This document shows positions 12,735 to 29,666 of a DNA stretch of 34,907 nucleotides, piece after piece. Position 1 is the first letter of the stretch; every line of letters starts with the position of its first letter. Where the stretch lies: NCBI GenBank assembly GCA_946547105.1, contig CAMNOV010000013.1, positions 1 to 34,907 of the forward strand. The letters are read 5' to 3'. The translations under genes were made by a program, and so were the position numbers. The notes beneath the pieces were generated by a model, which was given only the letters and a program-made list of their open reading frames with translations, did no database searches and was not told where the DNA came from. Origin of the DNA: an uncultured Clostridia bacterium. Its GTDB lineage: Bacteria > Bacillota > Clostridia > Oscillospirales > Oscillospiraceae.

Positions 12735-14108
12735 TCAGAGTCCGGGGAAGCCTCCGCCGAGGCCGGGGAAGCCGCCCCCGCCCATTTTGCCGAACTTGCG
12801 CTGCAGCTTCTTCATGTTCTTGCCGCTGAACTGCTTCATCATCTGCTGCATGCTCTCGTACTGCTTTAATAGACGGTTGACGTCCACGACGTTCAGACCG
12901 CAGCCGGCGGCGATGCGCTTTTTGCGGCTGGAGTTGAGGATCGCGGGATTGTCGCGTTCGGCCGGCGTCATCGAGAGGATGATCGCCTCCTGACGGGCCA
13001 TCTGCTTCTCATCGATCTTCGCGCCCTTGAGGGCCTTCGCGTCCACGCCGGGGATCATGCCCATGATGCTCTCCAGATCGCCCATGTTCTTGAGCTGACC
13101 CATCTGGTCGAGATAATCGCTGAGCGTGAAGCGGTTGGCGCGCAGCTTCTCGGCCGCCTCGAGCGCCTTCTTCTCGTCGAAGCTCTGCTCGGCCTTTTCG
13201 ATCAGCGTCAGCACGTCGCCCATGCCGAGAATGCGGGAGGCCATACGGTCGGGGTGGAAGGGCTCGATCATGTCGAGCTTCTCGCCCACGCCGATGTACT
13301 TGATGGGCTTGCCGGTCGCGGCGCGGATGCTCAGCGCGGCGCCGCCGCGGGCGTCGCCGTCGAGCTTGGTGAGCATCACGCCCGTCACGCCCAGCGCCTC
13401 GTCAAAGGCGGTGGCGGCGTTGACGGCGTCCTGGCCGGTCATCGCGTCGATCACCAGCAGGATCTCCGCCGGATGCACCGCGTCGCGGATGTTCTGCAGC
13501 TCCTGCATCAGCGCCTCGTCGATGTGCAGACGGCCGGCGGTGTCAAGGAAGACGATGTCGTTGCCGTGCGCCTTGGCGTGCTCGATGGCGGCTTTGGCGA
13601 TCTCGACCGGGTCGGTCTGGCCCATCTGGAAGACGGGGATGTTCAGCTGCGCGCCGACGGTCTCCAGCTGCTGGATGGCGGCGGGACGGTAAATGTCGCA
13701 GGCGACGAGCAGCGGGCGCTTGCCCTGCTTGCGGATGTAGCCGGCGAGCTTGGCGCCGTTGGTGGTCTTGCCCGCGCCCTGCAGGCCGACTAGCATCACG
13801 ACGCTCGGCAGCTGGGAGCTGATGTTCAGCTTCTGGTTTTCACCGCCCATGAGCTTGCAGAGCTCTTCGTTGACGATCTTGATGACCATCTGGGCGGGGT
13901 TGAGCGCTTCGAGCACGTCGGTGCCGACGGCGCGGTCGGTGACGGTCTTGGTGAAGTCCTTGACCACGCGGTAGCTGACGTCCGCCTCCAGCAGGGCCAT
14001 GCGCACCTCGCGCATCGCCTCGCGCACATCGGACGCGGTCAGCCGGCCTTTGCCGCGCAGGCGCTTGAAGGCCGCATTCAGTTTTTCGGATAAGCTTTCA
14101 AAGGCCAT
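12735..14108 (-). CDS. ffh: Signal recognition particle GTPase Ffh
   Basis: The 457-residue protein of the SRP, which binds signal sequences of nascent membrane and secreted proteins and docks with FtsY. Domains: N helical bundle (1-about 90), G domain with P-loop GLQGAGKTT (about 109), DTAGR, TKLDGDARGGAAL, and a Met-rich M domain (about 300-435) with the RNA-binding SRKKRIAAGCG stretch. It ends in Gly/Phe/Pro-rich GGGGFPGLGGGFPGL. GAGGA lies 7 bases before the ATG. The gene starts 3 bases after ylxM stops, the usual Firmicutes pair. Confidence 0.97.
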   Translation of the reverse strand: MAFESLSEKLNAAFKRLRGKGRLTASDVREAMREVRMALLEADVSYRVVKDFTKTVTDRAVGTDVLEALNPAQMVIKIVNEELCKLMGGENQKLNISSQLPSVVMLVGLQGAGKTTNGAKLAGYIRKQGKRPLLVACDIYRPAAIQQLETVGAQLNIPVFQMGQTDPVEIAKAAIEHAKAHGNDIVFLDTAGRLHIDEALMQELQNIRDAVHPAEILLVIDAMTGQDAVNAATAFDEALGVTGVMLTKLDGDARGGAALSIRAATGKPIKYIGVGEKLDMIEPFHPDRMASRILGMGDVLTLIEKAEQSFDEKKALEAAEKLRANRFTLSDYLDQMGQLKNMGDLESIMGMIPGVDAKALKGAKIDEKQMARQEAIILSMTPAERDNPAILNSSRKKRIAAGCGLNVVDVNRLLKQYESMQQMMKQFSGKNMKKLQRKFGKMGGGGFPGLGGGFPGL

Positions 14109-15835: not shown

Positions 15836-15850
15836 TTTTGTGATACGCAG

Positions 15851-15883
15851 ACGCCCGCCGCTGAAAAAGCGGCGGGCGTTTTT
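15851..15883 (+). terminator. Terminator of ychF
   Basis: A perfect 12-bp stem ACGCCCGCCGCT/AGCGGCGGGCGT with loop GAAAA and T-run 15879-15883. Confidence 0.92.
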
Positions 15884-15897
15884 GCATCTCGGGGGGC

Positions 15898-16276
15898 GGG
15901 CCGCCGAGGGCGTCGGCCCCTACGGGAAACGGATTGCCGCGCCAATGTGCGCACCGGCGCGCAATGACAGGTTTCAGGGGTTTCAGGCAAGGGACCAAAG
16001 AAGAGAAGGACGGTTCGTGAATCGCCCCTACGGAGAAACGCGAGGGACGGGCCGCCGAGGGCGTCGGCCCCTACGGGGGAAACGGATTGCCGCGCCAATG
16101 TGCGCACCGGCGCGCAATGACAGGTTTCAGGGGTTTCAGGCAAGGGACCAAAGAAGAGAAGGGCGGTTCGTGAATCGCCCCTACGGAGAAATGCGAGGGG
16201 CGGGCCGCCGGGGGCGTCGGCCCCTACGGGAAACGGATTGCCGCGCCGGTGTGCGCACCGGCGCGCAATGACAGGG
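15898..16276 (-). repeat. Tandem 151-153-bp composite repeat, about 2.5 copies
   Basis: Copies start at 15898, 16049 and 16202; the third stops after about 75 bp. Each holds module A (inverted), then ACGGATTGCCGCGCC...GGCGCGCAATGACAGG, then a GTTTCAGGGGTTTCAGGCAA / GACCAAAGAAGAGAAGG stretch, and module B (inverted). Copies 1 and 2 differ at only a few bases. Nothing here looks coding. An orphan terminator right arm, CGGCGGGCGTTTTTTT (16288-16303), follows the array. Confidence 0.92.
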
Positions 16277-16377: not shown

Positions 16378-16935
16378 ATGGAAGACAGAGAGATCGTGGA
16401 TCTGTACTGGCAGCGTTCCGATCTGGCCATATCGGAAACGGAAAACAAATACGGAAGATACTGCCGAACGATCGCCTTCAACATCTGCGGCGACGCCGAA
16501 GACGCGGAGGAATGCGTCAGCGACACCTGGTTTTGCGCCTGGAACCGGATGCCCTCCGAGCGCCCCGCGGTCTTGTCGGCCTTCCTCGGCTGTATCACCA
16601 GAAGCTTCGCCATCAATAAAGTCAGGGCGAAACACAGGATCAAGCGCGGCGGAGGGCAAGCGCCTCTTGCGCTGGACGAGCTGGCCGAATGCGTCCCCGG
16701 CGGAACGAACCCGGAGCAGGAACTGGAGGCCAGGGAACTGGAAGCGGCGATCGGGCGCTTCGTGGCCGGGCTGAAGGAAACGGACCGACAGGCCTTCGTC
16801 CTGCGGTACTGGTATCTCGCGCCGGTCGCTGCCATCGCGCAGCGGCTGGGCTGCCGGGAAGCGAAAATCAAGAGCAGCCTGTTTCGCAGCCGAAAAAAGC
16901 TGAAGGTCTATCTACAGGAGGAGGGCTTATGTTAG
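16378..16935 (+). CDS. ECF-like RNA polymerase sigma factor
   Basis: A 185-residue sigma-70 family protein with only regions 2 and 4. Region 2 (about 20-90) includes YCRTIAFNICGDAEDAEECVSD and TWFCAWNRMP; region 4 (about 128-178) has FVAGLKETDRQAFVLRYWY and an HTH, AIAQRLGCREAKIKSSLFRSR. A flexible basic/acidic linker lies between. AAAGGAG sits 8-9 bases before the ATG. It overlaps the next gene by 7 bases, the normal coupling for a sigma factor and its membrane anti-sigma. Signal and regulon unknown. Confidence 0.9.
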   Translation: MEDREIVDLYWQRSDLAISETENKYGRYCRTIAFNICGDAEDAEECVSDTWFCAWNRMPSERPAVLSAFLGCITRSFAINKVRAKHRIKRGGGQAPLALDELAECVPGGTNPEQELEARELEAAIGRFVAGLKETDRQAFVLRYWYLAPVAAIAQRLGCREAKIKSSLFRSRKKLKVYLQEEGLC

Positions 16936-17810: not shown

Positions 17811-17842
17811 CGCCCGCCGCGTTCACGCGGCGGGCGGTTTTT
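17811..17842 (+). terminator. Terminator of the sigma/anti-sigma operon
   Basis: An 11-bp perfect stem CGCCCGCCGCG/CGCGGCGGGCG, loop TTCA, and a T-run at 17838-17842. Its stem closely resembles the ychF terminator. Confidence 0.9.
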
Positions 17843-17883
17843 GTGCGTTAAGGGGGTGGGCGGTGGAATGCGGAATGAAAGAG

Positions 17884-18136
17884 CGGGCGATTCGTGAATC
17901 GCCCCTACGGAGAAATGCGAGGGGCGGGCCGCCGGGGGCGTCGGCCCCTACGAGGAAAACGGATTGCCGCGCCGGCGTGCGCACCGGCTCGCAATGACAG
18001 GTTTCAGGGTTTTCGGGCAAGGGGCCAAAGAAGAGGCGGGCGATTCGTGAATCGCCCCTACGGAGAAATGCGGGAACGGGCCGCCGGGGGCGTCGGCCCC
18101 TACGAGGAAATGCGGAATTCGGAATTCGGAATTGGG
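17884..18136 (-). repeat. Mosaic intergenic repeat block 3
   Basis: Inverted copies of the modules seen elsewhere: B (17884-17910), A (about 17923-17951), the GGATTGCCGCGCCGG...CGCAATGACAGG element (about 17960-18000), the GTTTCAGGG...CCAAAGAAGAG stretch (about 18000-18035), B again (18037-18063), A again (about 18075-18104), and GGAATTCGGAATTCGG repeats (18107-18136). This is nearly one and a half units of the 15898-16276 array, diverged. No gene seen. Confidence 0.85.
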
Positions 18137-18158
18137 GAGCGCGCGGGAGGGGCATAAA

Positions 18159-18191
18159 AAAACCGTGAAGCCGGGGGGGCTTCACGGTTTT
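18159..18191 (-). terminator. Terminator of the exporter/cargo locus
   Basis: A perfect 14-bp stem, AAAACCGTGAAGCC with GGCTTCACGGTTTT, and a 5-base G/C loop. On the minus strand the stem runs into TTTTTTT, ending the transcript of the LysM cargo gene. It could work on both strands. Confidence 0.92.
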
Positions 18192-18228: not shown

Positions 18229-18429
18229 TCAGAAACGGATGGTCAGCTTCTGGTTGACCTTGAGCTCCTGGGGATTGCGGATGTTGTTCCAACGGCAGAG
18301 CTGCTCCACCGTGCAGTGGAAACGCTTGGCGATGGACTCGGCCGTGTCGCCCGGACGGACGACATAGGGGATCATCGTGCCGCCGCTGACATCCTGCAGC
18401 ACTTCATCGTTCAGGGGAGATGCGTTCAT
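18229..18429 (-). CDS. Double-glycine leader fused to a single LysM domain
   Basis: A 66-residue protein. Residues 1-17 (MNASPLNDEVLQDVSGG) form a double-glycine export leader: relative to the cut after Gly17 it has Leu at -12, Leu at -7, Val at -4, Ser at -3, Gly-Gly. The rest (about 22-66) is a complete LysM: YVVRPGDTAESIAKRF, then LCRWNNI and a final LKVNQKLTIRF. LysM binds GlcNAc-containing glycans, chiefly peptidoglycan. The mature product would be a bare 49-residue wall-binding module with two Cys (39, 45). No Sec signal is present, so export by the C39-peptidase ABC transporter at 23695-25875 is the natural reading. It lies 12 bases after the lipoprotein gene, behind AAGGAGG, and ends the locus. 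Confidence 0.85.
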   Translation of the reverse strand: MNASPLNDEVLQDVSGGTMIPYVVRPGDTAESIAKRFHCTVEQLCRWNNIRNPQELKVNQKLTIRF

Positions 18430-18441
18430 GTTCAGTCCTCC

Positions 18442-20937
18442 TTATTGAAGCAGTATTTTCTCAAAGTCGAGATCCTTGCCGGAATCTTCCTTCGCGTCCT
18501 TCCAGGTCAGATGCTCGGTCGCCTTGTTGAAGTTCAGCGTGCCCTCGCCGTCCTGGTAGACGGTCTCTTCGACGGTCTGGCCTTCCGCGGTGACGCGGGT
18601 AACGGTCTTGACGCAGTCCTTGTACTTGAGCTCGCCTTCCGCGTTGAAGCTGCCGAAGAAGACCCACTTGCTGGTCTCGCCATCGGCGACGATGGTCACT
18701 GTCACCTTGTATTCACCTTCGGCGCGTTCGGAGGGCTTGATCTCGATCTCGATGTCGTGGTTCTTGACCTCGCGGTATTTGCCGGCCACGGAGAGCTTGC
18801 CCGGATCGGGGTCCAGCCCCTCGGTCACGCCGTAGATATCGACCAGGTAGATCGTCTCGTCGCTCGGGTAGTCCGCGTAGTACACGGTGCAGCTGCAGCC
18901 CTCGGCGAGCATGCCGTAGGCAAGGCGGCAGATGGCGGGATCGACGGTGACGATGAGGCCGTTGGCCAGGTTGATGGTGTAGCGCTCGGCCTGGATATCG
19001 TGCACGATACCGGCCATCGAAGCATAGACCGGCTCCGGCGCAGGCTCAGGCTCGGGCTCGGCGGTGGGTTCGGGCTCGGCGGTGGGTTCGGGCTCGGGCT
19101 CAGCGGTGGGTTCGGGCTCGGGCTCAGCGGTGGGCTCGGGCTCAGGCTCAGCGGTGGGCTCGGGCTCAGGCTCAGCGGTGGGCTCGGGTGCGGGCTCAGG
19201 CGTCGGTTCGGGCGCGGGCGTCGGCTCGGGCTCGCCGGGCAGGGTGATCGTGCCGCCGCACTCGATCAGATCGAGCGGCTGGCCGCCGTAGCTGCCGTTG
19301 AAGTGCCAAATGACGTCCATCAGCAGCTCGCTGCTCTCATTGCCCAGCTCCACGGAGAAGCTGTGGCTGTCAAAGTAGGTGGTCGTCTTGCCGCCGGTGT
19401 AGTCCATGGCGGGCTGGGTGATGCTGGCCGTCTGCTTGCCGAGGCTGAGGGAGATGCCGTTTTCGACCCGGTTGAGGGTGATGGAGGCGGAGCGGATGCT
19501 GATATCCATCGTCACTTCCGCCCGGTGATCGCCGGTCTTGACCGCCTTCCAGTCGCAGCAGAGATCCAGACCGGTTTCCGTGTCGGAGCTGAAGCCGCCG
19601 GAGGCGATGGTCTCACCGGAGGGAGCGGGCGTCGGGGTGGGCTGCTCGGTCGGAACGGGGGCCGGAGCGGGCGTGGGCGCGGCAGTCGGCGCGGGGGCCG
19701 GGGCCGGCGTGGGCGCGGCGGTGGGCGCCGGGGTGGGGGCGGCGGTCGGCGCGGGCGTCGGGGTCGCCTTGGCGCTCACGGAGAGATAGGCCGTGTTGGT
19801 GCGCGCGGTCTGACCGTCATAGTTGAAGGTGCAGTAGGCGCCCCAGCGGTCCGCCTGCTTGGTCAGCTTGCTGATGCTCAGCGTGGTGCTGTACAGGCCG
19901 CTGAGCTGGACGCCGGGGACCTTGTTGAGGAAGCCCTGCGGCGTGTACTCGCCGCCGTCGGGGGACACAAAGGTCCAGCTCAGCGAGGTGTAGATGTTGG
20001 AGAAGGCCACAAAGTAGGCGGTGTCGCCCTCGCTGCGCTTCTCATTGGTGGGGTTCTTGGTGATGTACAGGAAGAGCGGCGCCGAGCCAGGTGCGGGAGA
20101 CTCTTCCGCAGGGGCCTCGCCGATGGGGCGGGGACGGGGCAGGGGATTGGTCTTGTCGGGCGTCTGATCGCCGGTGAAGACCGCGTAGCTGTCGGTCAGG
20201 CAGGAAGCGTCCTTCGCGTCCTCAAAACGGAACCAGCCGAAGTTGCTGCTGCTCTTCTCGCAGCCGGCAAAGGCCTGCTGGCCGGCGGCGTTATAGGCCT
20301 CGGGCGAGATATCACTGCCGTTGAGGTCCATATAGCTGACGCTGCGCTTCCCGTTTTGTTCCGAAACGAACTGGAAGGCATAGCTCTCGTAGCTCAGCGT
20401 CCCGTCGCGCAGGGTGACGGCGCACTTGGCCGTGTAGGCCTCGGTCTCGGAGAGCAGGATGTTGTCGTAAAACAGATACGACCAGGCACCCGTGACGGGG
20501 TCGTGGAAGGTGTCGGCGTTCTCGGAGAGAATATCCGGGAAGGATTCGCCCTCCTCGAGCTTGACCGCGCATTCGACGAGCGCGTCATTGTTTTCGTTGA
20601 GCTCCCAGAGCTTGAGGCTGGTGGAGCGGTCGGCCAGGTGCTGGGACGCGGCGACCAGCTCGAGACGGCCGTTGTGGTCCAGGTCGGTCACCGCATAGCG
20701 CCATTCGCGCGCTTCCCCGTCCTGCTCCAGCGAGGGCAGGGTCGGGAAGAGGGCGAGGATCTGCGCGGCGGCGGGATCTTCGCTCGGGGCGGGCGTGGGC
20801 TCCGCCGGGGCCTGCGTGGGCGCGGGGGCCTCGGGCGCGGGCGTTTCGGCGGGCTGAGGGGCGGCGCCGCCGCAGGCGGCGAGGGAGAAGACCATCGCGA
20901 TCGCCAGCAGCAGGCAGAGAATCGATTTTCTGTCCAT
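18442..20937 (-). CDS. Large multidomain lipoprotein with Pro-rich stalks
   Basis: An 831-residue surface lipoprotein. The signal ends in the lipobox SLAAC, Cys22 being lipidated. Parts: Pro/Ala linker (about 26-54); a domain (about 55-260) with an Asp-rich loop [11 protein letters not shown] like calcium-binding FG-GAP/EF-type repeats; an Ig-like stretch (about 285-388); a TPAPTAAP linker (about 390-437); a beta-rich domain (about 445-565); a PEPEPTAE repeat linker (about 568-636); and a C-terminal domain (about 640-831) that includes an OB-like segment. The linkers look like wall-spanning stalks. It lies between the two double-glycine cargo genes and 12 bases before the LysM one. A role as cell-surface receptor, anchor or immunity partner for the cargo is possible but unproven. 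GGAGG is 7-8 bases before the ATG. Confidence 0.8.
19028..19232 (-). repeat. In-gene tandem repeat encoding the PEPEPTAE stalk
   Basis: Tandem 24-bp units (eight codons, P-E-P-E-P-T-A-E) with some shortened copies, encoding about residues 568-636 of the lipoprotein. Such units are expected to vary in number between strains by slippage. Confidence 0.85.
19626..19768 (-). repeat. In-gene repeat encoding the TPAPTAAP stalk
   Basis: Imperfect units of T-P-A-P-T-A-A-P with P-A-P-A insertions, about residues 390-437 of the lipoprotein; nearly all codons are GC-rich Pro, Ala or Thr. Confidence 0.8.
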
Positions 20938-20953
20938 GGTTGTTCCTCCGTGG

Positions 20954-20980
20954 GCGGCGCAGACAGAGAAGCTGCGCCGC
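20954..20980 (-). promoter_or_regulatory. Leader hairpin before the lipoprotein gene
   Basis: GCGGCGCAG...CTGCGCCGC, a 9-bp stem with 9-base loop, ending about 7 bases before the GGAGG of the lipoprotein gene. With no T-run it is not a terminator. It may protect the downstream mRNA end or set expression relative to the cargo gene before it. Confidence 0.45.
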
Positions 20981-21020
20981 TTTCCATCATAGGGATGGGA
21001 TTTTAGATTTGATGAAAGGA

Positions 21021-21055
21021 ATCCGGCAGCATCGACGCTTGCGAGGCTGCCGGAT
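21021..21055 (-). terminator. Probable terminator after the CW_7 cargo gene
   Basis: A 10-bp perfect stem (21021-21030 with 21046-21055) and 15-base loop, followed on the minus strand by TTCCTTTCATC, a weak T-run. It may end or thin the transcript after the CW_7 gene, leaving the lipoprotein-LysM pair with partial read-through or its own promoter. Confidence 0.55.
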
Positions 21056-21081
21056 CCTGTGCCTGAGAAGGGAGCCCTTTA

Positions 21082-21402
21082 TCAGAGCAGCATGTTGTTG
21101 ACCAGGTTCTGGATGGTGTCGTAGTCGTAGCCGGCCTTCTTCAGGGCGATCTTGCGGGCATCGCCGTTGCCGTACTTGCCGTCGATGACGTCCTTGGCGA
21201 CCTTCTCATACTTGAGCAGATCGTTGACCAGGCCCTGCACGACCTGGGGATCAAAGCCGGCCTTTCTCAGCGCGGCAAAGCGGGCCTCGCCGTTGCCGTA
21301 GTCGCCGTTGATGCAGGCATAGGCAGCCTTCAGGTTGCGGGTCATACCGCCGGAAACGTTCTCCAGTGCTTCGTCAGCCAGTTTTACGATGTTGTCAGTC
21401 AT
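21082..21402 (-). CDS. Double-glycine leader fused to two CW_7 (Cpl-7) wall-binding modules
   Basis: A 106-residue protein. Residues 1-19 end in VKLADEALENVSGG, a double-glycine leader with Leu -12, Leu -7, Val -4, Ser -3, Gly-Gly, matching the LysM protein at 18229-18429. The mature part is two copies of a module of about 39 residues: first (25-63) with INGDYGNGEARFAALRKAGF, second (68-106) with VIDGKYGNGDARKIALKKAG followed by YDYDTIQNLVN. The G-x-(Y/W)-G-N-G-x-x-R...L-x-x-A-G-(Y/F)-D...V-Q/I-Q...V-N pattern is that of CW_7 repeats, which let Cpl-7-type phage lysins bind muropeptides. No enzyme domain is present. It lies 73 bases after the second ABC gene; AAGGAAG precedes the ATG. Export and cleavage by the neighbouring C39 transporter is inferred. 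Confidence 0.85.
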   Translation of the reverse strand: MTDNIVKLADEALENVSGGMTRNLKAAYACINGDYGNGEARFAALRKAGFDPQVVQGLVNDLLKYEKVAKDVIDGKYGNGDARKIALKKAGYDYDTIQNLVNNMLL

Positions 21403-21475: not shown

Positions 21476-23680
21476 TTATTTTACAGTACCTGAAGCGCCG
21501 GTGTCAAGTCTTTGCTTGGCAACCAGGGCTGCAAACAGGCCGTTTTTCGCAATCAGCTGGTCATAGGTGCCGTCCTCGGCGATACGCCCCTTGTCCAGCA
21601 CCAGGATCCGGTCGCAGTGGCGGATGGTGCTCAGGCGGTGGGCGATCACGATGCGGGTGCATTTGAGGGAGTCCAGCGCGTCGGATACCTGCTTTTGCGT
21701 TTTGTTGTCCAGGGCGGAGGTCGCCTCGTCGAACATCAGGATCTTCGGCTTCGGCGCGATGGCCCGGGCGATCATCAGCCGCTGCTTCTGGCCGCCGGAG
21801 ATGCCGCCCTGGCCCTCGGAGATCAGCGTCTGCATCCCCATGGGCATGGCGCGAATATCGTCGGCGATGCCGGCCAGCTCCGCCGCCTCCCAGGCCTCCT
21901 CCAGCGACAGCTGGGGCGCGGAGATGACGATGTTGGAGTAGATATCGCCCTGGAACAGGCTGCCGTTTTGCGTCACGGCGCCGATCCGGCGCCGCAGCGA
22001 GCCCAAATCCAGCCCGGACATGTCCTTGCCGTCATAGTAGATCGCGCCGCGCTCCGGCTTTTCAAAGCCGAGCAGCAGCCGCATCAGCGTGCTCTTGCCG
22101 CAGCCCGTCGTGCCGACGATCGCCACGTATTCGCCCGCTTTGATCTTCAGGCTCAGGCCGTCAATCACATAGGGCATGCTCTCGCGGTAGCGGAAGGAGA
22201 CCTTCGACAGCTCGATATTGCCGGAAAGGCGCGTGACCATGGCCTTGTGCTCGGCCGACTCCGGCTCGGTTTTCAGGATGGGCTCCGCCATCTCCAGGAT
22301 GGGACGGATCCGCGCCACCGTGAGGGCCACGCCGCTGAGCGACGAGAAGGCGCCCATCACCATGCCGAAGGCGGCGTTGAAGGCCAGATATTCCGAGGGC
22401 GTCACGCGGGTTTCGACCGCGAGGTCATACAGCAGGAGCGTGCCCGCCAGGCCGACCGCCGTGACGATCACGCTGCTGACCTTCAGAAACAGGGGGGGAT
22501 TGTAATTGAGCTCGGCGACCTCGGAGAAGGAGCGGGCCCAGCGGGCGAAGACCCGCTTTTCCGCGCCGGCGAGCTTGATTTTCTGCACGCCGTTGATGAG
22601 CGCGTAGCTCAGGCCTTCGTTTTTCGCGCCGAGCTCCATGGCCCGCTTGCTGATCCTGATCTGCAGGAGAGCGGCGATCACGCCGATGCCCACGGTGAGC
22701 AGGATGATCGCCAGCGCCGGCAGGACCAGCGCGGGCGCATAGTGGAAGATCTGCGTGATATACAGCAGGCTCATCAGCGAGCTCAGCCCCATGGAGAACA
22801 CGCCGCCCAGCAGCTGGCTGCACAGCTGGTTGACCGCGCCGAAGCGGCTGGACAGCTCGCCGGAGGACCAGCGGCGGAAGAAATCGGCCGGAAGGTTCAG
22901 CACGCGCATCATCACCGCGGCCTCCACGGACAGGGAGGTTTTGATTTCGATGCGGTTCATCATCAGCTCGCGCACGCTGGAGATCAGCTGCGTGGAAACG
23001 AGGGTGCAGACCGTGAAGATCGCGGCGCCCGTCAGCATGGCGAGGCTGCCGCGCTCGAGCACCACACCCGTCAGCGTGCGCGTGATGCGCGGCATCAGCA
23101 TGCCGACCAGAGTGACGAGCAGCGTGAGCCCGGCGATCATCAGCAGGTCGCCCGTGCTCAGGCAGCCCTTCATGTAAAGCAGCAGGTCCGGGATGCCCAG
23201 CTTTTTGAGCGGGAGCGGGCGGTAAAAGCAGACCGCGTCCTCGGCAAACTGCGCCGCCGTCTGCCGGCTCAGCGACTGCCATTCGCCGCTGACCGGGTCG
23301 AGGAAGCGATAGCCCATGAAGGGCTTCGGCAGCAGCGCCACCGGCAGGCGGGACTGCCCGTAAAAGCCCAGCATCGGGCCGAAGGCGTCCCGGTACCAGC
23401 CCTCCTCCAGGCGGACGTTTCGCCGCATGATCCCGTGGGGACGCAGGCAGTATTCCAGCTGCTCGTCGGCGTCGGTCAGATTCTCGGGGATCTCCGAGGA
23501 CTGGACGTGATAATATTTCAGGATCTCGTCGATGGCCGCCTTGGTGACGATGCGCTCGTCGTTGAGCGCGCCGGCGCCGGGCCTGCCGAGGACCACGGAG
23601 GCCATGCGGAAAATGGAGTCTTCAAATACTTCCTGATCCTTCTGCTTGCGCAGGCGGATCTGGTCGTCAAACCAACTCAT
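21476..23680 (-). CDS. NHLM-type ABC exporter, permease/ATPase without C39 peptidase
   Basis: A 734-residue half-transporter. The first 150 or so residues form a soluble domain that takes the place of the peptidase, as in the second ABC protein of 'NHLM bacteriocin' systems. A transmembrane domain follows (about 165-440), then a nucleotide-binding domain (about 485-730) with Walker A GTTGCGKST, signature ISGGQKQR (Ile for the usual Leu), Walker B ILMFDEATSALD and switch His in IAHRLST. It lies 14 bases after the C39-ABC gene with GGAGG upstream, so the two are co-expressed and may act together. What it moves is unknown; in NHLM systems the job of this second ABC protein is not settled. Confidence 0.85.
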   Translation of the reverse strand: MSWFDDQIRLRKQKDQEVFEDSIFRMASVVLGRPGAGALNDERIVTKAAIDEILKYYHVQSSEIPENLTDADEQLEYCLRPHGIMRRNVRLEEGWYRDAFGPMLGFYGQSRLPVALLPKPFMGYRFLDPVSGEWQSLSRQTAAQFAEDAVCFYRPLPLKKLGIPDLLLYMKGCLSTGDLLMIAGLTLLVTLVGMLMPRITRTLTGVVLERGSLAMLTGAAIFTVCTLVSTQLISSVRELMMNRIEIKTSLSVEAAVMMRVLNLPADFFRRWSSGELSSRFGAVNQLCSQLLGGVFSMGLSSLMSLLYITQIFHYAPALVLPALAIILLTVGIGVIAALLQIRISKRAMELGAKNEGLSYALINGVQKIKLAGAEKRVFARWARSFSEVAELNYNPPLFLKVSSVIVTAVGLAGTLLLYDLAVETRVTPSEYLAFNAAFGMVMGAFSSLSGVALTVARIRPILEMAEPILKTEPESAEHKAMVTRLSGNIELSKVSFRYRESMPYVIDGLSLKIKAGEYVAIVGTTGCGKSTLMRLLLGFEKPERGAIYYDGKDMSGLDLGSLRRRIGAVTQNGSLFQGDIYSNIVISAPQLSLEEAWEAAELAGIADDIRAMPMGMQTLISEGQGGISGGQKQRLMIARAIAPKPKILMFDEATSALDNKTQKQVSDALDSLKCTRIVIAHRLSTIRHCDRILVLDKGRIAEDGTYDQLIAKNGLFAALVAKQRLDTGASGTVK

Positions 23681-23694
23681 GCCCGTCCACCTCC

Positions 23695-25875
23695 TCAGTC
23701 GCTTGCGATCAGCTCGGCATAGGCGCCGCCGCGGGCATAGAGCTCGTCGTGCGTGCCGCGCTCCACCACTTCGCCCTTGTCGAGCACGATGATCTCGTCG
23801 CAGTCACGGATGGTGGACAGGCGGTGCGCGATGACGATGCAGGTGATGCCGCGGTCGCGGATCGCCTTGACGAGCTCATACTCGGTCAGCGCGTCGAGCG
23901 CCGAGGTCGCCTCGTCGAGGATGATCAGCGTGGGATCCTGCGCCAGCACGCGGGCGATCTCCAGACGCTGCCGCTGGCCGCCGGAGAGGTCCCGGCCGCC
24001 CTCACTGAGCATGCCCTGGAAGCCGCCCTCGCGAGCCATGATATCGTCGTAGATCTGGGCGTCGCGCGCGGCGAGGATCATTTCAAAGTCCTCGATCGAG
24101 CTGTCCCACATCTTGATGTTGTTGGCGATCGTGTCCTCAAAGAGGACGATGTCCTGGTCCACGACGGCCACGGAGCCGGTGAAGACGCTGCGGTCGATCT
24201 CCGAGATGGGCTTGCCGTCAAAGAGGATCTCGCCGCTCCAGGGCTGATAGAGCCCGGAGATCAGCTTGGAGAGCGTGCTCTTGCCGCAGCCGGAGCCGCC
24301 CACAAGGGCCACGCGGCTGCCGGGCTTCATGTGCAGGGAGAAATCCCGGATCAGCGGCGGGCCGAGCCGGGAATAGCCGAAGCTGACATGGCGCAGCTCC
24401 AGCTCGCCGGAGAGCTTGGAGTAGTCCGCCGTCTCGGACAGAGGCGCGTCGGAGAACATGGGGTCGTCTGGGTATTGCATCACGTCCTCCACGCGCTCCA
24501 TCTCGGTGCGCATCTCCTGGATGGACTGGCCGGCGGAAATGAGCAGCATGGCCGGCGCCATGAAGGCGCTCAGAAAGCCCTGAAAGCTCATGATCATGCC
24601 GATGGTGAAGCGGCCCTGCATGGCCTGGTAAACGCCGAGGATCAGCACCGCGGCGCCGGCCAGCGAGCTGAGCAGGGCGGGGATCATGCCGAAGAGCTCG
24701 TTGAGCTTCGCGAAGCGGACTTCGGCGGCGTTGACGGAGGCCTGATAACCGGCCCATTTCTGGAAAAAACCGTTTTCTGCACCGCTGGCCTTGATGGTCT
24801 CCACCATCTGGATGCCGGAGACGGTGGTCGAGGCGAGCTTGCCGCTGTCGCGCAGCTGGACGCGGGTGATGTTTACGCGCCTGTTGGAGATGATCCGGGA
24901 GACGAGCAGGTTGAGGATCATCGCCGTCAGGCCCACGACGGTCAGCAGGACGCTGTAGCGCAGCATGACCGCCAGATAAAAGATCATCATCGCCGTGTTC
25001 AGCAGCAGGGGAGCGAAGGTGTTGACCAGGGTACCGGCGATGGAGGCGTTGGTGCCCATGCGCTGCAGGATGTCGCCGGACAGGCGCTGGCTGAAAAACT
25101 CCATCGGCAGGCGCAGCAGCTTCCACATGAAGGCGCTGCTGCCGACGAGGTCCATTTTTCCGTTGATTTTCAGCGAATAGACCGCCTGGACCCAGCCGAC
25201 GACGAGCTGCGCCAGCCCCAGAAGCCCCAGCAGGCCGAGGAAGGGCATCAACAGCTCCCGGTTTTCCCCGGTGAGCAGACGGTCGATGAAGAAGTTGGAG
25301 AAGATGGGATTGATGATGCCGAAAAGGGAGACGATCGCCGTGGACAGCATCACGAAGACCGCCGCCGAGCCCGCGCCGGTCAGACGCTTGCGGGCAAAGG
25401 CGATGGTGCTTTTGCGCCTGCCGCCGGGCTGAAATTCCGGCCCGGGCGTGATCTGCAGGCAGATACCGGTGAAGGAGCGGTCAAAGTCCTCCGCGCTGAC
25501 CCTCACCTCGCCGCGCGCGGGGTCGTTGATATAGGCGTAGCGCCCGCGGAAGCCCTTGAGCACGACGAAATGGTTGAAGTTCCAGTGGATGATGCAGGGG
25601 CAGGCGATCTCCTCCCGCAGCGCCTGGGGCTCGCAGCGAAAGCCGCCCGCCTCAAAGCCGTAGCTGCGGGCAGCCAGCAGGACGTTGCGGGCGTTGGAGC
25701 CGTCGCGGGATACGCCGCAGTCCAGGCGCACCTGCTCAAGCGGCACCCACTTGCCGTAATAGGCCATGACCATCGCAAGCGAGGCGGCGCCGCATTCGAG
25801 CGCCTCCATCTGCATCACGACGGGGACCTTTGCCACGCCCCCGGTCACCGGCCGCTTGATCCGATCCTTGCTCAT
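23695..25875 (-). CDS. C39-peptidase ABC exporter (PCAT), NHLM type
   Basis: A 726-residue exporter that cuts double-glycine leaders and moves the cargo across the membrane. N-terminal C39 peptidase: Gln22 (oxyanion), Cys28 in LECGAASLAM, His102 in NFNHFVVLKG, Asp118 in INDPARG, all intact. A transmembrane domain spans about 185-470. The nucleotide-binding domain has GGSGCGKST, DLSGGQRQR and LIILDEATSALD. I start at 25875 (MSKDRIKRP) behind AAGGGGG; the frame runs 34 codons further upstream, but that reads into the preceding gene. It overlaps nothing and begins 10 bases after the adaptor gene. The presence of two leader-bearing proteins downstream makes them the obvious substrates. Confidence 0.92.
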   Translation of the reverse strand: MSKDRIKRPVTGGVAKVPVVMQMEALECGAASLAMVMAYYGKWVPLEQVRLDCGVSRDGSNARNVLLAARSYGFEAGGFRCEPQALREEIACPCIIHWNFNHFVVLKGFRGRYAYINDPARGEVRVSAEDFDRSFTGICLQITPGPEFQPGGRRKSTIAFARKRLTGAGSAAVFVMLSTAIVSLFGIINPIFSNFFIDRLLTGENRELLMPFLGLLGLLGLAQLVVGWVQAVYSLKINGKMDLVGSSAFMWKLLRLPMEFFSQRLSGDILQRMGTNASIAGTLVNTFAPLLLNTAMMIFYLAVMLRYSVLLTVVGLTAMILNLLVSRIISNRRVNITRVQLRDSGKLASTTVSGIQMVETIKASGAENGFFQKWAGYQASVNAAEVRFAKLNELFGMIPALLSSLAGAAVLILGVYQAMQGRFTIGMIMSFQGFLSAFMAPAMLLISAGQSIQEMRTEMERVEDVMQYPDDPMFSDAPLSETADYSKLSGELELRHVSFGYSRLGPPLIRDFSLHMKPGSRVALVGGSGCGKSTLSKLISGLYQPWSGEILFDGKPISEIDRSVFTGSVAVVDQDIVLFEDTIANNIKMWDSSIEDFEMILAARDAQIYDDIMAREGGFQGMLSEGGRDLSGGQRQRLEIARVLAQDPTLIILDEATSALDALTEYELVKAIRDRGITCIVIAHRLSTIRDCDEIIVLDKGEVVERGTHDELYARGGAYAELIASD

Positions 25876-25885
25876 GGCGCCCCCT

Positions 25886-26302
25886 TCAGCGCAGCAGCAG
25901 CCGCAGGATCTGCGTCTGCCGGTAGCGCACGCCGGCCGTGTATTCGCCGTCGGCCAGGTCGGTGTCGGCCAGGGCAAAGACGCCCTGCTCGTCGCGGCCG
26001 AGGCTGCGGATCTCGGAGCTGGTCTCCCCGACGGTGATCAGCATGCCCTCCTCGACGCTTTTCGCCAGTTCCTCGTCGTCAAAGCGGAGCGTCATGACGC
26101 CGTCGGCGACCTCCGCGCGGCCGTAGGCCACGCTGTCGATATAGGTAAAGGAGCCCCAGACCAGCAGGCCGACCAGCAGCAGGATCACCGCCGTCAGCAG
26201 CAGCCAGACGCTGGGATTGGTGACGCGCAGGACCTGATTGAGCTGCTCCGGAGATTCGATCCGCTCAAGGCTTTCCTTGCGGTAAAGGTGTACGTGTTCC
26301 AT
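25886..26302 (-). CDS. Very short NHLM-type HlyD-like secretion adaptor
   Basis: A 138-residue protein matching the N-terminus of NHLM-type secretion adaptors: RKESLERIESPEQLNQVLRVT, then one transmembrane helix (about 33-53) and a small extracytoplasmic beta domain of about 85 residues with G-x-A-E-V and G-M-L-I-T-V. The long coiled coil and lipoyl parts of HlyD adaptors are absent, sensible in a cell without an outer membrane but far shorter than the usual family member. The frame is clean with a normal stop, so it looks designed rather than broken. GGAG is 6-7 bases before the ATG; 48 bases separate it from the dipeptidase gene. Confidence 0.75.
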   Translation of the reverse strand: MEHVHLYRKESLERIESPEQLNQVLRVTNPSVWLLLTAVILLLVGLLVWGSFTYIDSVAYGRAEVADGVMTLRFDDEELAKSVEEGMLITVGETSSEIRSLGRDEQGVFALADTDLADGEYTAGVRYRQTQILRLLLR

Positions 26303-26350: not shown

Positions 26351-27010
26351 TTATCGTTTCAAATAGGCCGAAGAGACCGGGAAATTGAAATAGGTGTCCG
26401 GATAGGGCTCGTTGGCGAGGACGAAATGCCACCACTCGCAGTCGATCGGCTGAAAGCCGTTTCGCAGCATGGCGCGCCGCAGGATCATGCGGTTGTCATA
26501 CTGCTCGGCGCTGATCCCCCGGTAATCCGGGTGCGAGACCTCGCTGAACAGGTCGAAGGGACCGCCCATGTCGAGCTCTTTGCCGCTTTTCATGTCCAGC
26601 AGCGTCAGATCCACGGCGCTGCCGCGGCTGTGGCTGGACTGCTTGGCGATATAGCCCCGGGCGAACAGCTCCTGCTTTTCCAGCTCCGGATAGAAATAGG
26701 GCTTCATGCGGATATCCTGGTCCTCGATGCCCCAGAGGACGAAGTGCTTCACCGCGCAGGCCGGGCGGTAGGCGTCGAACACCTTCAGGCGGTAGCCCTG
26801 CACGATCAGCTCGCTGCTGACGGCCTTGAGCGCCCGCGCAGCCTCGACGGTCAGCAGAGCGCAGGGCTCCTCATAGCCGTCGATGCGCTCGCCGATGAAG
26901 TTGTAGGTCGAATAATAGCGGATCTCCTGCACGATCTGCGGCACGTAATCGGCCAGCAGAACGAAGCCGGAGGGATCCATGGTCAGGTCGTTTTTATACG
27001 CGGTCCTCAT
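26351..27010 (-). CDS. D-alanyl-D-alanine dipeptidase, VanX/DdpX family
   Basis: A 219-residue zinc enzyme that hydrolyses the D-Ala-D-Ala dipeptide. All hallmarks are present: Arg82 in DAYRPACAVKHF, zinc ligands His127 and Asp134 in SSHSRGSAVDLTL, catalytic Glu192 and zinc ligand His195 in CEWWHF. There is no signal peptide, so it should be cytosolic like VanX. No vanH, vanA-type ligase or VanRS lies nearby, so this is not a vancomycin resistance cluster. It overlaps the end of the phosphatase gene by 17 bases, has GGAGG 6 bases before the ATG, and precedes the exporter genes. It could recycle D-Ala-D-Ala or alter precursor pools when the system is on. Confidence 0.9.
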   Translation of the reverse strand: MRTAYKNDLTMDPSGFVLLADYVPQIVQEIRYYSTYNFIGERIDGYEEPCALLTVEAARALKAVSSELIVQGYRLKVFDAYRPACAVKHFVLWGIEDQDIRMKPYFYPELEKQELFARGYIAKQSSHSRGSAVDLTLLDMKSGKELDMGGPFDLFSEVSHPDYRGISAEQYDNRMILRRAMLRNGFQPIDCEWWHFVLANEPYPDTYFNFPVSSAYLKR

Positions 27011-29183
27011 GGCTATCCTCCGTTTGGCCGCCCTTGTATTCCAGGCAGAGCATGGTCAGATCGTCGAACTGCTCGGCGTCGCGGACGAAAATATCGACCG
27101 CCTCGTGCACGTTCTCCAGGATGCGGCCGGGCCCGGCGTCGGGCTCCTTGTTGAGAGCCTCCATCATCCGCTCGAGACCGAACATGCGGTTTTCCGCATC
27201 CGTCGCCTCGGGCACGCCGTCGGTATAGACGAAGAGCTTGGCGCCGGGCTCCAGCTGCAGCTCGTATTCTTTATATTTTGCGCCGGCGATGCCGCCGATC
27301 ACGAAGCCGTGCTTGTCGCGATACAGCTCGAAGCGGCCGTCCGGGTGCTTGATCACCGGGAACTCGTGGCCGGCGTTGGAGGCGGTGAGCCTGCCGGTGG
27401 ACAGCTCGAGGATGCCGATCCAGACGGTGACGAACATATCCACCTGGTTGTTGGAGCAGAGAGCCTCGTTGGTCTTGGCGAGGATCTCCGAGGCGGATTT
27501 GCCCAGCATGGCGCAGCTTTGCAGGATGGTCTTGGCGATCATCATGAACAGCGCCGCCGGCACGCCCTTGCCCGAGACGTCCGCGATCACCAGACCGAGG
27601 TGGTCCTCGTCGATCAGGAAGAAATCGTAGAAGTCGCCGCCGACCTCCTTGGCAGGCTTCATGGTGGCGTAAATATCGAACTCCCGGCGGTTCGGATAAG
27701 GCGGGAAGACGTGCGGCAGCATGCTGTTCTGGATCTGGCTGGCCATGGACAGCTCCGTGCTGACGCGCTCCTTCTCCCGGGTGATCTCGGTGATGTTTTC
27801 GATGTACTGCTTGGTTTTTTTCGACAGATCGTCAAAGGACTCGGCCAGCACCTCGATCTCGTCGTTGGTGCGGTAGGAGTCTTTCATCTCAAACAGCTCG
27901 CCGGTCCGGCTGCTGTGGATGATGTTTTTCGTCATATCCCGGATCGGGTTGACGATCCGGTTGGCGGCAAGCAGGGCGACCGCGACGCTGAGCACGAAGA
28001 CGACGGCGATGATCCCGATGACCGTCCGCCGGGTCCGCACGGTGCCTTCCCGGAAGCGGGCGCTGGCCTGATCGTTGATCTTGTCGTATTCGGCGAGCAT
28101 CTGCCGCTCGGGCTGCTCTGTGATCTCTTTCTCCACCAGGGAGATGACCGCCCAGCCGACCGTCGGCATCGGGGCGCCGGCGGCATAATACTGCTTGTCG
28201 CGGATGGTGATGGTCTTCAGATCGGTCGTCTTATGCAGGGAGTCATCAATAAAATGCGCCAGCTCCCGGTTGCTGGAGTTTCTCAGGTCCGTGGCCAGAT
28301 CGGCTTCCTCCGCCTTGAAGGTCTCGCTCTCCTCCGGCGCGAGGATCACCTGGCCGCGGTTGTTGACGACGACGGCAATGCCCGCGCCTTCGCCGGAGGC
28401 GGTCATGAAATCGACCATGCTGCCCGGAAAAATGTCGATCCCGACGACGCCGATCAGCTCCCCGCCTACGTAAACGGGGGCGGAGCAGGTGACCAGCAGG
28501 CGGTTGGTGAAGGCGTCCCGGACCATGCCGGTGAAGTAGATCCCGCCGCTGGCGACCGCCCCCTTGTACCAGGGCCGGTCTCTGACCGGGAAGGGGATGG
28601 GATTGCCGCTTTCGTCCAGCTTGCTCAGGGGCTTGTCGTCCACGCAGAGATCCGTCCCGTCGGCCAGGCCGATATAGCAGCCGTCGATCTTGTCGGAACT
28701 GCGGTAAAGGGCGATCATGGGCGCGCTCATGTGCGCGGCGATTCCGATGTATTCCGATTCGGTATAGTCCACGCCCTCCTCGCACAGAACCATGGCGGAG
28801 GGGACGCCGGCCTTGTCCGGATCGGGCAGGCCGACCGCGGCAGGCACGATCTGCGCCCGGCTTTCAAACAGGCCCTGCGCCATGGCCTGCAGCATGTGGA
28901 TCTGGTCGACGATCTGGGAAAAATCATTGTCCGCGATCTTGGCCTGCAGGGCGGTCGAGCTGACGAGCGTGCCCTCCATGACCTGGTGCATCGTATCGCG
29001 GGAGGTCTGGGAGATCGCCGTCTGCTGCACGGTCCTCGTTTCGCCGACGATGTCGGAGAGCATTCTGCTCTGATAGGCGGACACGCCCAGGAATACGGCG
29101 ACCGTTGCCGCCATGATCAGCAGTACGAGGGTCACGGTCTTCTGCTGCAGCCCGCCGAAGGTTAAACCCAGTATCTTTTTCAA
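26994..29183 (-). CDS. Sensor serine phosphatase: dCache - HAMP - SpoIIE-type PP2C
   Basis: A 729-residue membrane sensor. TM1 about 16-36; extracellular double-Cache region about 50-360 (with RDRPWYKGAV and VGIDI, typical Cache motifs); TM2 about 388-408; HAMP about 408-460; then a PP2C/SpoIIE phosphatase about 505-717 with metal-site motifs EVGGDFYDF, IADVSGKGVPAALFM, SNAGH, YTDGVPEA and QFDDLTML. Such enzymes dephosphorylate STAS-domain antagonists in partner switches. The start is a TTG at 29183 behind GGGGGAG; no ATG fits. It begins 14 bases after the STAS gene. No anti-sigma kinase is in the window, so the switch partner must be elsewhere. The extracellular ligand is unknown. Confidence 0.9.
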   Translation of the reverse strand: MKKILGLTFGGLQQKTVTLVLLIMAATVAVFLGVSAYQSRMLSDIVGETRTVQQTAISQTSRDTMHQVMEGTLVSSTALQAKIADNDFSQIVDQIHMLQAMAQGLFESRAQIVPAAVGLPDPDKAGVPSAMVLCEEGVDYTESEYIGIAAHMSAPMIALYRSSDKIDGCYIGLADGTDLCVDDKPLSKLDESGNPIPFPVRDRPWYKGAVASGGIYFTGMVRDAFTNRLLVTCSAPVYVGGELIGVVGIDIFPGSMVDFMTASGEGAGIAVVVNNRGQVILAPEESETFKAEEADLATDLRNSSNRELAHFIDDSLHKTTDLKTITIRDKQYYAAGAPMPTVGWAVISLVEKEITEQPERQMLAEYDKINDQASARFREGTVRTRRTVIGIIAVVFVLSVAVALLAANRIVNPIRDMTKNIIHSSRTGELFEMKDSYRTNDEIEVLAESFDDLSKKTKQYIENITEITREKERVSTELSMASQIQNSMLPHVFPPYPNRREFDIYATMKPAKEVGGDFYDFFLIDEDHLGLVIADVSGKGVPAALFMMIAKTILQSCAMLGKSASEILAKTNEALCSNNQVDMFVTVWIGILELSTGRLTASNAGHEFPVIKHPDGRFELYRDKHGFVIGGIAGAKYKEYELQLEPGAKLFVYTDGVPEATDAENRMFGLERMMEALNKEPDAGPGRILENVHEAVDIFVRDAEQFDDLTMLCLEYKGGQTEDSHEDRV

Positions 29184-29197
29184 ATCGCTCTCCCCCG

Positions 29198-29497
29198 TTA
29201 TTCGATCGTGAGGATCTCGGAGAAGCCCGTCACATCAAAGATCTCCATGATGGCTTCGCTGACGTGTATGAGCTTCATGCTTCCATGGCCGTTCATGGCC
29301 TTCTGCGCGGCCAGCAGCACGCGCAGACCGGCGGAGGAGATATACTCCAGGCCGGAGAAATCCAGGATCAGGCCGTCCGCGTCGCCGAGCTCGTCCTGCA
29401 GCGAGCGCTCCAGGTCCGGCGCGGTGACCGTATCCAGACGCCCGGACAGCGTATAGATCAAGGTTCCGTTGTCAATCGTCTTATTGATGTTCAGCAT
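29198..29497 (-). CDS. STAS-domain anti-sigma factor antagonist
   Basis: A 99-residue single STAS domain like SpoIIAA/RsbV. The phosphorylation-site region LEYISSAGLRVLLAA is intact, with the target Ser in I-S-S-A-G-L. It would be dephosphorylated by the PP2C encoded next and then bind an anti-sigma kinase. The ATG at 29497 is behind AAGGAGA; an in-frame extension to 29578 lacks a ribosome site and is unlike the family. It is first in the 11-kb minus-strand locus, so the regulator pair leads the operon. Confidence 0.92.
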   Translation of the reverse strand: MLNINKTIDNGTLIYTLSGRLDTVTAPDLERSLQDELGDADGLILDFSGLEYISSAGLRVLLAAQKAMNGHGSMKLIHVSEAIMEIFDVTGFSEILTIE

Positions 29498-29566
29498 AGC
29501 ACGTTCTCCTTGCCGAAGATTTCGATGGACCGGCGCGCCGGGAAGGCGGCGGCCGTAGGGCAAACA

Positions 29567-29572
29567 ATTATA
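29567..29572 (-). promoter_or_regulatory. Possible -10 box of the STAS-exporter locus
   Basis: On the minus strand TATAAT lies about 70 bases before the STAS gene in an AT-rich patch (29567-29615), but no TTGACA-like -35 stands 16-18 bases upstream. It may need an activator or another sigma factor. Confidence 0.3.
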
Positions 29573-29666
29573 ATTCAATCTATCATAACATAAAAATTTC
29601 CGGGAATCTACAAAAAAACAGAGATTTCTTCGGCCGGCCCGGAGAAAAGGCCGAGGGGCAAAAAGA

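Follow-up and report, generated by a model that had tools for sequence, protein, structure and literature searches.

The window analysed here is the whole 34,907-nucleotide contig CAMNOV010000013.1 (G000:C13) of an uncultured Clostridia bacterium of the Oscillospiraceae (assembly GCA_946547105.1; 1.89 Mb in 110 contigs, 86% complete). It holds a compact minus-strand gene array in which two small proteins, hereafter the LysM cargo and the CW_7 cargo, carry a double-glycine (GG) leader ahead of bare peptidoglycan-binding modules. The array runs from an SDR oxidoreductase, a STAS protein, a dCache-SpoIIE phosphatase, a VanX-like dipeptidase and a HlyD-like stub to two ABC proteins (ABC1, with a C39 peptidase domain, and ABC2), followed by the CW_7 cargo, a lipoprotein, the LysM cargo, and a terminator-like hairpin (Table 1). 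The short HlyD-like protein before the exporter and the gene for an 831-residue lipoprotein between the cargos are additions to the initial annotation of this DNA. By protein similarity, the closest relatives carry the record titles Ruminococcaceae, Oscillospiraceae or Clostridiales bacterium; where a title names the sample, examples are goat reticulum and sheep rumen, and we take RUG isolates to be rumen genomes.

Table 1. Features of the gene array and their positions in the window.
Feature	Position	Strand	Support
LysM cargo, 66 residues, leader residues 1-17, mature part ~49 residues	18229..18429	-	PF01476; leader kept in homologues
Double-glycine leader of LysM cargo, MNASPLNDEVLQDVSGG	18379..18429	-	
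Lipoprotein, 831 residues, between the two cargo genes	18442..20937	-	Lipobox by eye
Lipoprotein domain common to a GG-leader cargo family	19237..19617	-	
CW_7 cargo, 106 residues, leader residues 1-19, two CW_7 repeats	21082..21402	-	PF08230
Double-glycine leader of CW_7 cargo, MTDNIVKLADEALENVSGG	21346..21402	-	
Sigma-70-like promoter match upstream of CW_7 gene (TTGACA, 18 nt, TAAAAT)	21478..21507	-	11/12 matches
NHLM exporter subunit 2 (ABC2), permease/ATPase without peptidase	21476..23680	-	TIGR03797
NHLM exporter subunit 1 (ABC1) with C39 peptidase; start = ATG at 25875	23695..25875	-	TIGR03796
HlyD-like stub, 138 residues, one membrane segment (by eye)	25886..26302	-	
VanX-like D-Ala-D-Ala dipeptidase, co-oriented	26351..27010	-	PF01427, E 8.2e-40
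dCache/SpoIIE-type sensor phosphatase, possible regulator	26994..29183	-	PF07228, E 8e-51; PF02743, E 1.8e-20
Anti-sigma-factor antagonist (STAS)	29198..29578	-	TIGR00377, 67.1 bits (cut-off 53.45)
Terminator-like hairpin and T run 3' of LysM gene	18156..18191	-	By eye; not listed on that strand by the hairpin scanner

Leaders, modules and exporter

Both cargo open reading frames (ORFs) were confirmed, each with a Shine-Dalgarno-like sequence preceding its ATG. The initial annotation had described a leader pattern common to the two proteins, and reading both ORFs bore this out: each leader has Leu at −12 and −7, Val at −4, Ser at −3, and Gly at −2 and −1, so that, with the hydrophobic positions, the GG and a nearby C39 exporter, both have the features of double-glycine C39 substrates. 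Profile hidden Markov model searches returned the modules that had been proposed, with the mature part of the LysM cargo matching PF01476 (E 1.8e-16, 60.2 bits against a cut-off of 20.9) and that of the CW_7 cargo matching PF08230 over two stretches (E 8.7e-31, 105.8 bits against 25). The Pfam scan gave no further domain above cut-off in either protein, in keeping with the earlier view of the cargos as catalytically inert. No bacteriocin family scored above cut-off on the mature parts, which had been proposed not to be bacteriocins, and the only bacteriocin-named match (CTB, E 0.047, 13.9 bits against 32) covered residues 1–27, mostly leader. Neither cargo matched TIGR03793 or TIGR03798 above cut-off; TIGR03793 was absent up to E 1, and the best Nif11 match (E 0.13, 12.5 bits against 32.3) was to the CW_7 cargo but lay beyond its leader, on residues 37–52. 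In the window genome, the CW_7 cargo was the sole CW_7 protein found, and the three LysM matches were the LysM cargo and open frames of 426 and 736 residues.

CW_7 repeats are described in cell wall hydrolases, where they bind GMDP (PMC5705596). Mapping the GMDP contacts of the Cpl-7 endolysin onto the cargo repeats by spacing, a mapping of our own, we noted that the contacting Gln was kept in 66/66 repeats and Asn in 61/66, with one short-cut repeat excluded; these two are the only free counts, as the repeat pattern itself demanded Arg and Gly. The Arg that contacts GMDP in Cpl-7 was also kept, within what this pattern can tell.

The leader stands out from its background. A strict motif, which is post hoc in that it was shaped once the families had been seen, matched the window twice, at both cargo genes, versus no match in 200 dinucleotide shuffles. 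A loose motif gave 24 matches in 30 loci (475,570 bases), most of them fetched for the exporter and some for the CW_7 cargo, versus 6, 2, 3, 7 and 2 matches in five shuffles; the cross-genome leader search near exporters that had been suggested for this DNA exceeded every shuffle, although some of the 24 matches are chance-like, including one in the window at 13473. From the motif counts against shuffles and the distribution of the leader among CW_7 loci (below), we rejected a chance origin of the leader.

The two ABC proteins exceeded the curated cut-offs for the NHLM exporter pair, ABC1 scoring 927.1 bits to TIGR03796 (cut-off 853.3) and ABC2 733.3 bits to TIGR03797 (cut-off 709.4). The C39 domain of ABC1 is identical to LahT147 (PDB 6mpz) at 108 of 145 aligned residues (74%), with catalytic residues Q22, C28, H102 and D118 as in LahT. 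The intact C39 exporter of the initial annotation is thus present as regards its triad and its TIGR03796 score, but consists of two ABC proteins, not one. LahT is described as cleaving at GG, LahT150 as substrate-tolerant, and the structure as seating Val−4, Leu−7 and Leu−12 of the leader (PMC6363468); both window leaders present these three residues. The HlyD-like protein covers only positions 1–49 of the 421 in TIGR03794 (29.8 bits against 156.2) and is therefore no full-length HlyD-like subunit. Its homologues lie near the exporter in 34/36 genomes of the genus and in 14/16 sampled genomes of other genera. The window locus is a reduced form of the NHLM system with a HlyD stub, and a cell that has no outer membrane may manage without the membrane-fusion arm.

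Leaders and exporters in relatives and viruses

Conservation of the leaders in homologues had been named as a point on which the initial annotation would turn, and it held when public genomes were scanned with a pattern from the mature part of the CW_7 cargo (the full-length query served to confirm and rank candidates, and 80 of the 92 loci so confirmed were kept). The leader was present in 31/32 CW_7 loci assigned to the family versus 0/48 others, the lone leaderless family locus being cut by a contig end, and the median CW_7 frame was 121 residues in family loci versus 296 elsewhere. The assignment was ours, from record titles and closeness: Clostridiales titles were counted in, as was L085 (titled Clostridia, identical in sequence to G579 of the genus), and the leaderless L096 (Clostridium sp.) and L098 (Clostridia bacterium) were counted out, their inclusion giving 31/34. 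Among complete short LysM or CW_7 ORFs at family loci, 124/129 had the leader, a count that groups L096 and L098 with the family and draws on loci partly picked by similarity to a leader-bearing query; outside it stand four incomplete ORFs (one with the leader, three without) and six frames above 150 residues (three with, three without). In other taxa, a looser motif occurred in 1/46 ORFs, with GS instead of GG in a 487-residue frame, and was judged spurious. Order-wide, 18/394 genomes, including that of the window, matched CW_7; the other matches were mostly frames above 240 residues, with the leader reading covering G145 only.

We gathered 122 distinct leader-bearing proteins (86 LysM, 36 CW_7). 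Position −10, which was not in the search motif, was Asp or Glu in 121 of them. Where the motif had demanded hydrophobic residues alongside GG, position −12 was Leu, Ile or Met in 112, −7 was Leu in 107, and −4 was Val in 105. Because the leader is conserved between species and also in viruses, and is associated with the exporter, it is highly improbable that the leaders are remnants on cytosolic proteins or a chance motif.

Cargo and exporter occur together. In a sample of 200 genomes of the family, CW_7 cargo matches were found in 7, of which 5 had the leader, and all five of these carried the NHLM second subunit above cut-off, versus 10/200 overall. Among 61 genomes of the genus, 30 had the exporter and a short LysM cargo, 1 the cargo only, 6 the exporter only and 24 neither (Fisher p 2e-10, uncorrected for ancestry), as read from the printed rows with a cargo being a match at E 0.001 with an open frame of at most 130 residues and an exporter one above cut-off. 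Five of the six exporter-only genomes had other leader-bearing proteins: a CW_7 cargo in G605, CW_7 and LysM cargos in G585, two LysM-like cargos (by eye) in G612, and other small proteins in G592 and G603; only G598 had no leader-bearing cargo. The gene order stub-ABC1-ABC2-CW_7-lipoprotein-LysM is repeated in the nearest relatives of the window and rearranged elsewhere in the genus. Within 8 kb of the exporter (ABC1 at least 48% identical; many loci cut by contig or fetch ends), the second subunit and the HlyD stub were each found in 34 of 36 genus genomes, LysM in 20, lipoprotein and STAS in 17 each, CW_7 in 15, SpoIIE in 6 and VanX in 4.

The exporter and the gene association can be read directly from these genomes, as can the leaders and modules, and predicted export of both cargos is well supported. 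That they would be secreted by an ABC route, if processed, agrees with the initial annotation and draws support from the LahT-like C39 domain, the leader conservation and the co-occurrence with the exporter. As to what such export would serve, we consider it rather probable that the NHLM transporter supplies a regulated coat made of small wall-binding proteins without catalytic activity.

The lipoprotein between the cargos bears on this. Its residues ~441–566 are 31–36% identical to a stand-alone GG-leader protein of relatives. Across the 61 genus genomes, 12 stand-alone copies were found in 10 genomes with the match spanning the leader (the residue-level reading covered some), and the domain is fused in the lipoprotein in four genomes (G000, G577, G583, G597; an 891-residue frame in G561 is left out), none of which has a stand-alone copy. 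At L097, L214 and L145 (the locus of L225), the stand-alone cargo adjoins a lipoprotein without the shared domain. The small wall binders might instead be adapters that hold surface proteins such as this lipoprotein to the wall, and both the fusion and the adjacency of the genes (a lipoprotein-family segment ends less than 1 kb upstream of 25/45 LysM matches) speak for such docking; however, the cargos are almost nothing but wall-binding module and show no obvious second face for binding, and we regard docking as quite unlikely. With the cargo domain fused into the lipoprotein, the producer's own surface is indicated. The shared domain appears to be an envelope domain with three kinds of use and supports placing the cargos of the proposed coat on the producer's own surface, without specifying a pair. 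A frame from 1099 of another contig of the window genome (L265, G000:C6) has the shared domain too, and by eye we recognised in it a proline-rich linker and, at the N-terminus, a membrane segment.

LysM cargo queries also found leader-bearing short LysM genes in three viral contigs, IMGVR_UViG_3300037400_001962 (122.7 kb), IMGVR_UViG_3300028888_000063 (133.7 kb) and IMGVR_UViG_3300028833_003112 (4.8 kb). The genes (L369:2992-3186, L370:6007-6198, L383:4336-4530) lie among tRNA genes, and the GC content of the viral loci is 0.36–0.39 versus 0.62 in the window. In one 15-kb stretch from each of the two large contigs, PHROGs identified portal and virion proteins in 3300037400_001962 and a weak tail match in 3300028888_000063. 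The first and third contigs are sister phages whose cargos are 86% identical, with a ratio of nonsynonymous to synonymous substitution rates (dN/dS) of 0.32 (few sites) versus 0.17 and 0.07 for two neighbouring genes. A search for a C39 domain in the two large viral records, which may be fragments, returned none. That large tRNA-bearing phages have the infected host's NHLM exporter lay phage-encoded LysM on the cell is a possibility that we raise tentatively from these gene contents.

Phage copies also touch on a role as shield or decoy, in which exported LysM and CW_7 would occupy peptidoglycan sites against lysins, phages or rival binders, and phages would carry a copy that changes the infected cell's wall, for example as a defence against superinfection. 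This is consistent with the GMDP-binding CW_7 repeats of cell wall hydrolases (PMC5705596), with the leader-LysM genes in viral contigs where C39 was not found in the two large records, and with the length of the viral ORFs matching the two cargo profiles, mostly long with a median of 299 residues (89 ORFs among the matches listed). In viruses, however, the leader was found on short LysM only. Checking for the motif within the first 60 residues of each frame, we found no leader-bearing CW_7 among the viral matches listed, with L369 LysM the only one with a leader among those 89 ORFs (80 loci); viral matches to two further LysM types (LysM-B, 5 loci; LysM-C, 3 loci) showed no short leader cargo, and the scan with the lipoprotein-shared domain gave 90 stretches with none confirmed. 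We therefore think a shield unlikely and keep to the coat. L384 was rejected as a leader cargo because it is the leaderless terminal part of a frame that encodes both CW_7 and LysM. In plasmids (3 records), the matches listed begin at residue 27, with the leader part missing, and of 195 cultured-phage records matching the phage LysM, the 20 listed comprise 17 annotated as lysins or hydrolases, 2 as hypothetical proteins and 1 unannotated.

Further cargos and neighbouring genes

Many relatives encode several cargos per genome, among them other extracytoplasmic modules such as PepSY and further LysM. GG-leader PepSY proteins are encoded at L217:12454-12717 (PF03413, E 1.7e-9) and, by similarity, at L218:10376-10642, both adjoining lipoprotein and LysM genes. 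Another family of GG-leader proteins, marked by a conserved RDSWFV motif (L047:7946-8227, L091:15344-15625, L093:15065-15328, L284:10957-11202), is encoded immediately behind the second exporter subunit in several relatives; a Pfam scan of one member returned nothing up to E 1.

Upstream in the array, the VanX-like dipeptidase scored 198.9 bits to NF033115, under the cut-off of 320. The sigma-70-like match at the CW_7 gene also holds at 11/12 positions in the relative G004 but is weak, the upstream region having 3 sites versus a shuffle mean of 2.4, and a promoter conserved before CW_7 genes was rejected as unconvincing, with at least 10/12 positions in only 12/36 CW_7 cargo genes. Downstream, a short GC-rich element has intergenic copies at 17823–18190, where GGGCGATTCACGAATCGCCC occurs twice, and related GC-rich text lies at 15840–16270 (by translations), on the other side of a sigma-factor-like gene. 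This gene (16378–16935, + strand), beside the array on the opposite strand, was taken as a sigma factor, and the frame after it, with one membrane segment, is possibly its regulator.

Known systems and the proposed coat

The nearest parallel is MAM (Microbial Anti-inflammatory Molecule) of Faecalibacterium, described as a GG-leader protein encoded in most species beside a C39 exporter (PMC12184118, PMC8836110), with a HlyD-family gene near mam in one strain (PMC8836110). MAM is reported from the cell envelope, at higher abundance than any other protein there, with cleavage and export by a peptidase-containing ABC transporter proposed but unproven (PMC12184118). The likeness lies in a GG-leader protein whose export to the envelope through a C39 exporter is proposed; the cargo, however, is unrelated to LysM or CW_7, and the exporter is of another type. 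The MAM leader motif occurred in 3/394 genomes of the order, taken as Faecalibacterium from that motif. Their four motif-bearing loci gave no LysM, CW_7 or lipoprotein match, and three of the four had one ABC gene, 27–29% identical to ABC1, with no separate second subunit seen. We do not count the window locus as a MAM system and, with no cargo match and this exporter identity, rejected homology to the mam locus.

The NHLM families themselves are described for modified peptides (PMC2887384). NHLM/NHLP-Nif11 clusters (TIGR03794/03796/03797) share the same two ABC families above cut-off, whereas the window cargos are wall-binding modules with no NHLP/Nif11 leader above cut-off, HlyD is present only as the stub, and no modification enzyme was recognised among the scanned window proteins. 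LahT of Lachnospiraceae C6A11 has a C39 domain close to that of ABC1, with the same catalytic residues and leader anchor positions, but serves lanthipeptide precursors with Nif11-type leaders (PMC6363468). Cpl-7 (PDB 5i8l) also has CW_7 repeats, and its GMDP-contacting Gln (PMC5705596) and, apparently, Arg are kept in the cargo repeats; in Cpl-7 the repeats are joined to a catalytic module, whereas the window CW_7 repeats stand alone behind a leader. The literature searched, which excludes most subscription journals, yielded no paper that describes a C39 exporter with LysM or CW_7 cargo, and a term search of a 2026 rumen bacteriocin survey returned no occurrence of the word LysM (PMC13289728). 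What appears new here is the bare wall-binding modules as cargo; GG-leader envelope proteins (MAM) and the NHLM families were known.

The leader and exporter come from bacteriocin-type families and many relatives have multiple cargos, both of which would suit bacteriocin-like proteins acting on competitors through wall binding. Selection is less favourable to such a role. Between the window and G004, dN/dS was 0.096 for each cargo and 0.122 and 0.147 for the exporter subunits; with the more distant G583, it was 0.241 for LysM, 0.151 for CW_7, and 0.144 and 0.148 for the exporter. All values are purifying and agree with a conserved function no less well than with a weapon under rapid change, and the low values with G004 count against an antimicrobial. 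So do the lack of a recognised membrane-active or catalytic part in the cargos, the fusion of a cargo domain to the lipoprotein and the PepSY-type cargo of relatives; no immunity gene was recognised among the scanned proteins, though a dedicated search was not made. An antimicrobial role thus seems rather improbable, and among the roles that the initial annotation had listed, a coat on the cell's own wall is favoured.

Several observations weigh against this coat. With G583, the dN/dS of LysM exceeds that of both exporter subunits, and Glu at −8, part of the consensus given in PMC12184118, is missing from both window leaders. The lipoprotein and LysM genes adjoin in just the 25/45 LysM matches, and the fusion argues less strongly for a link between one cargo and the lipoprotein because the shared domain is widespread in other frames, mostly of 190–340 residues, in most genus genomes. 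Shared ancestry of the related genomes makes the Fisher value overstate independence, and the CW_7 cargo genes of G174 lie on contigs other than that of the exporter. In other genera, only 1/16 genomes has LysM, CW_7 and lipoprotein near the exporter, and these genera therefore presumably use the NHLM exporter for different cargo.

The cleavage, export, wall binding and regulation that we infer for the coat would proceed as follows. The dCache-SpoIIE phosphatase, which probably controls the locus, would read a signal and, with the STAS protein, set expression. The precursors would dock by their leaders on the C39 domain of ABC1, and, as homology strongly suggests, C39 would cut them after Gly-Gly and the ABC1-ABC2 pair export the products. 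Mature LysM and CW_7 would then bind peptidoglycan outside the cell, as known for these families, without covalent attachment and most likely in the producer's own wall. Together with the membrane-anchored lipoprotein they could build or adjust a surface coat, and this coat may make the wall stiffer, hide it or protect it.

A peptidase-ABC exporter is commonly interpreted as serving peptide antibiotics or signals. The one described here seems to handle a family of bare wall-binding modules in a lineage of gut bacteria. If the coat is real, then, together with MAM, envelope building would be a second general job of these exporters, and genome mining would need caution against labelling such loci bacteriocins. 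The phage copies would offer a direct test of the coat role and, if phages do use the host exporter, the bacterial coat and the phage copies would be two users of one secretion route.

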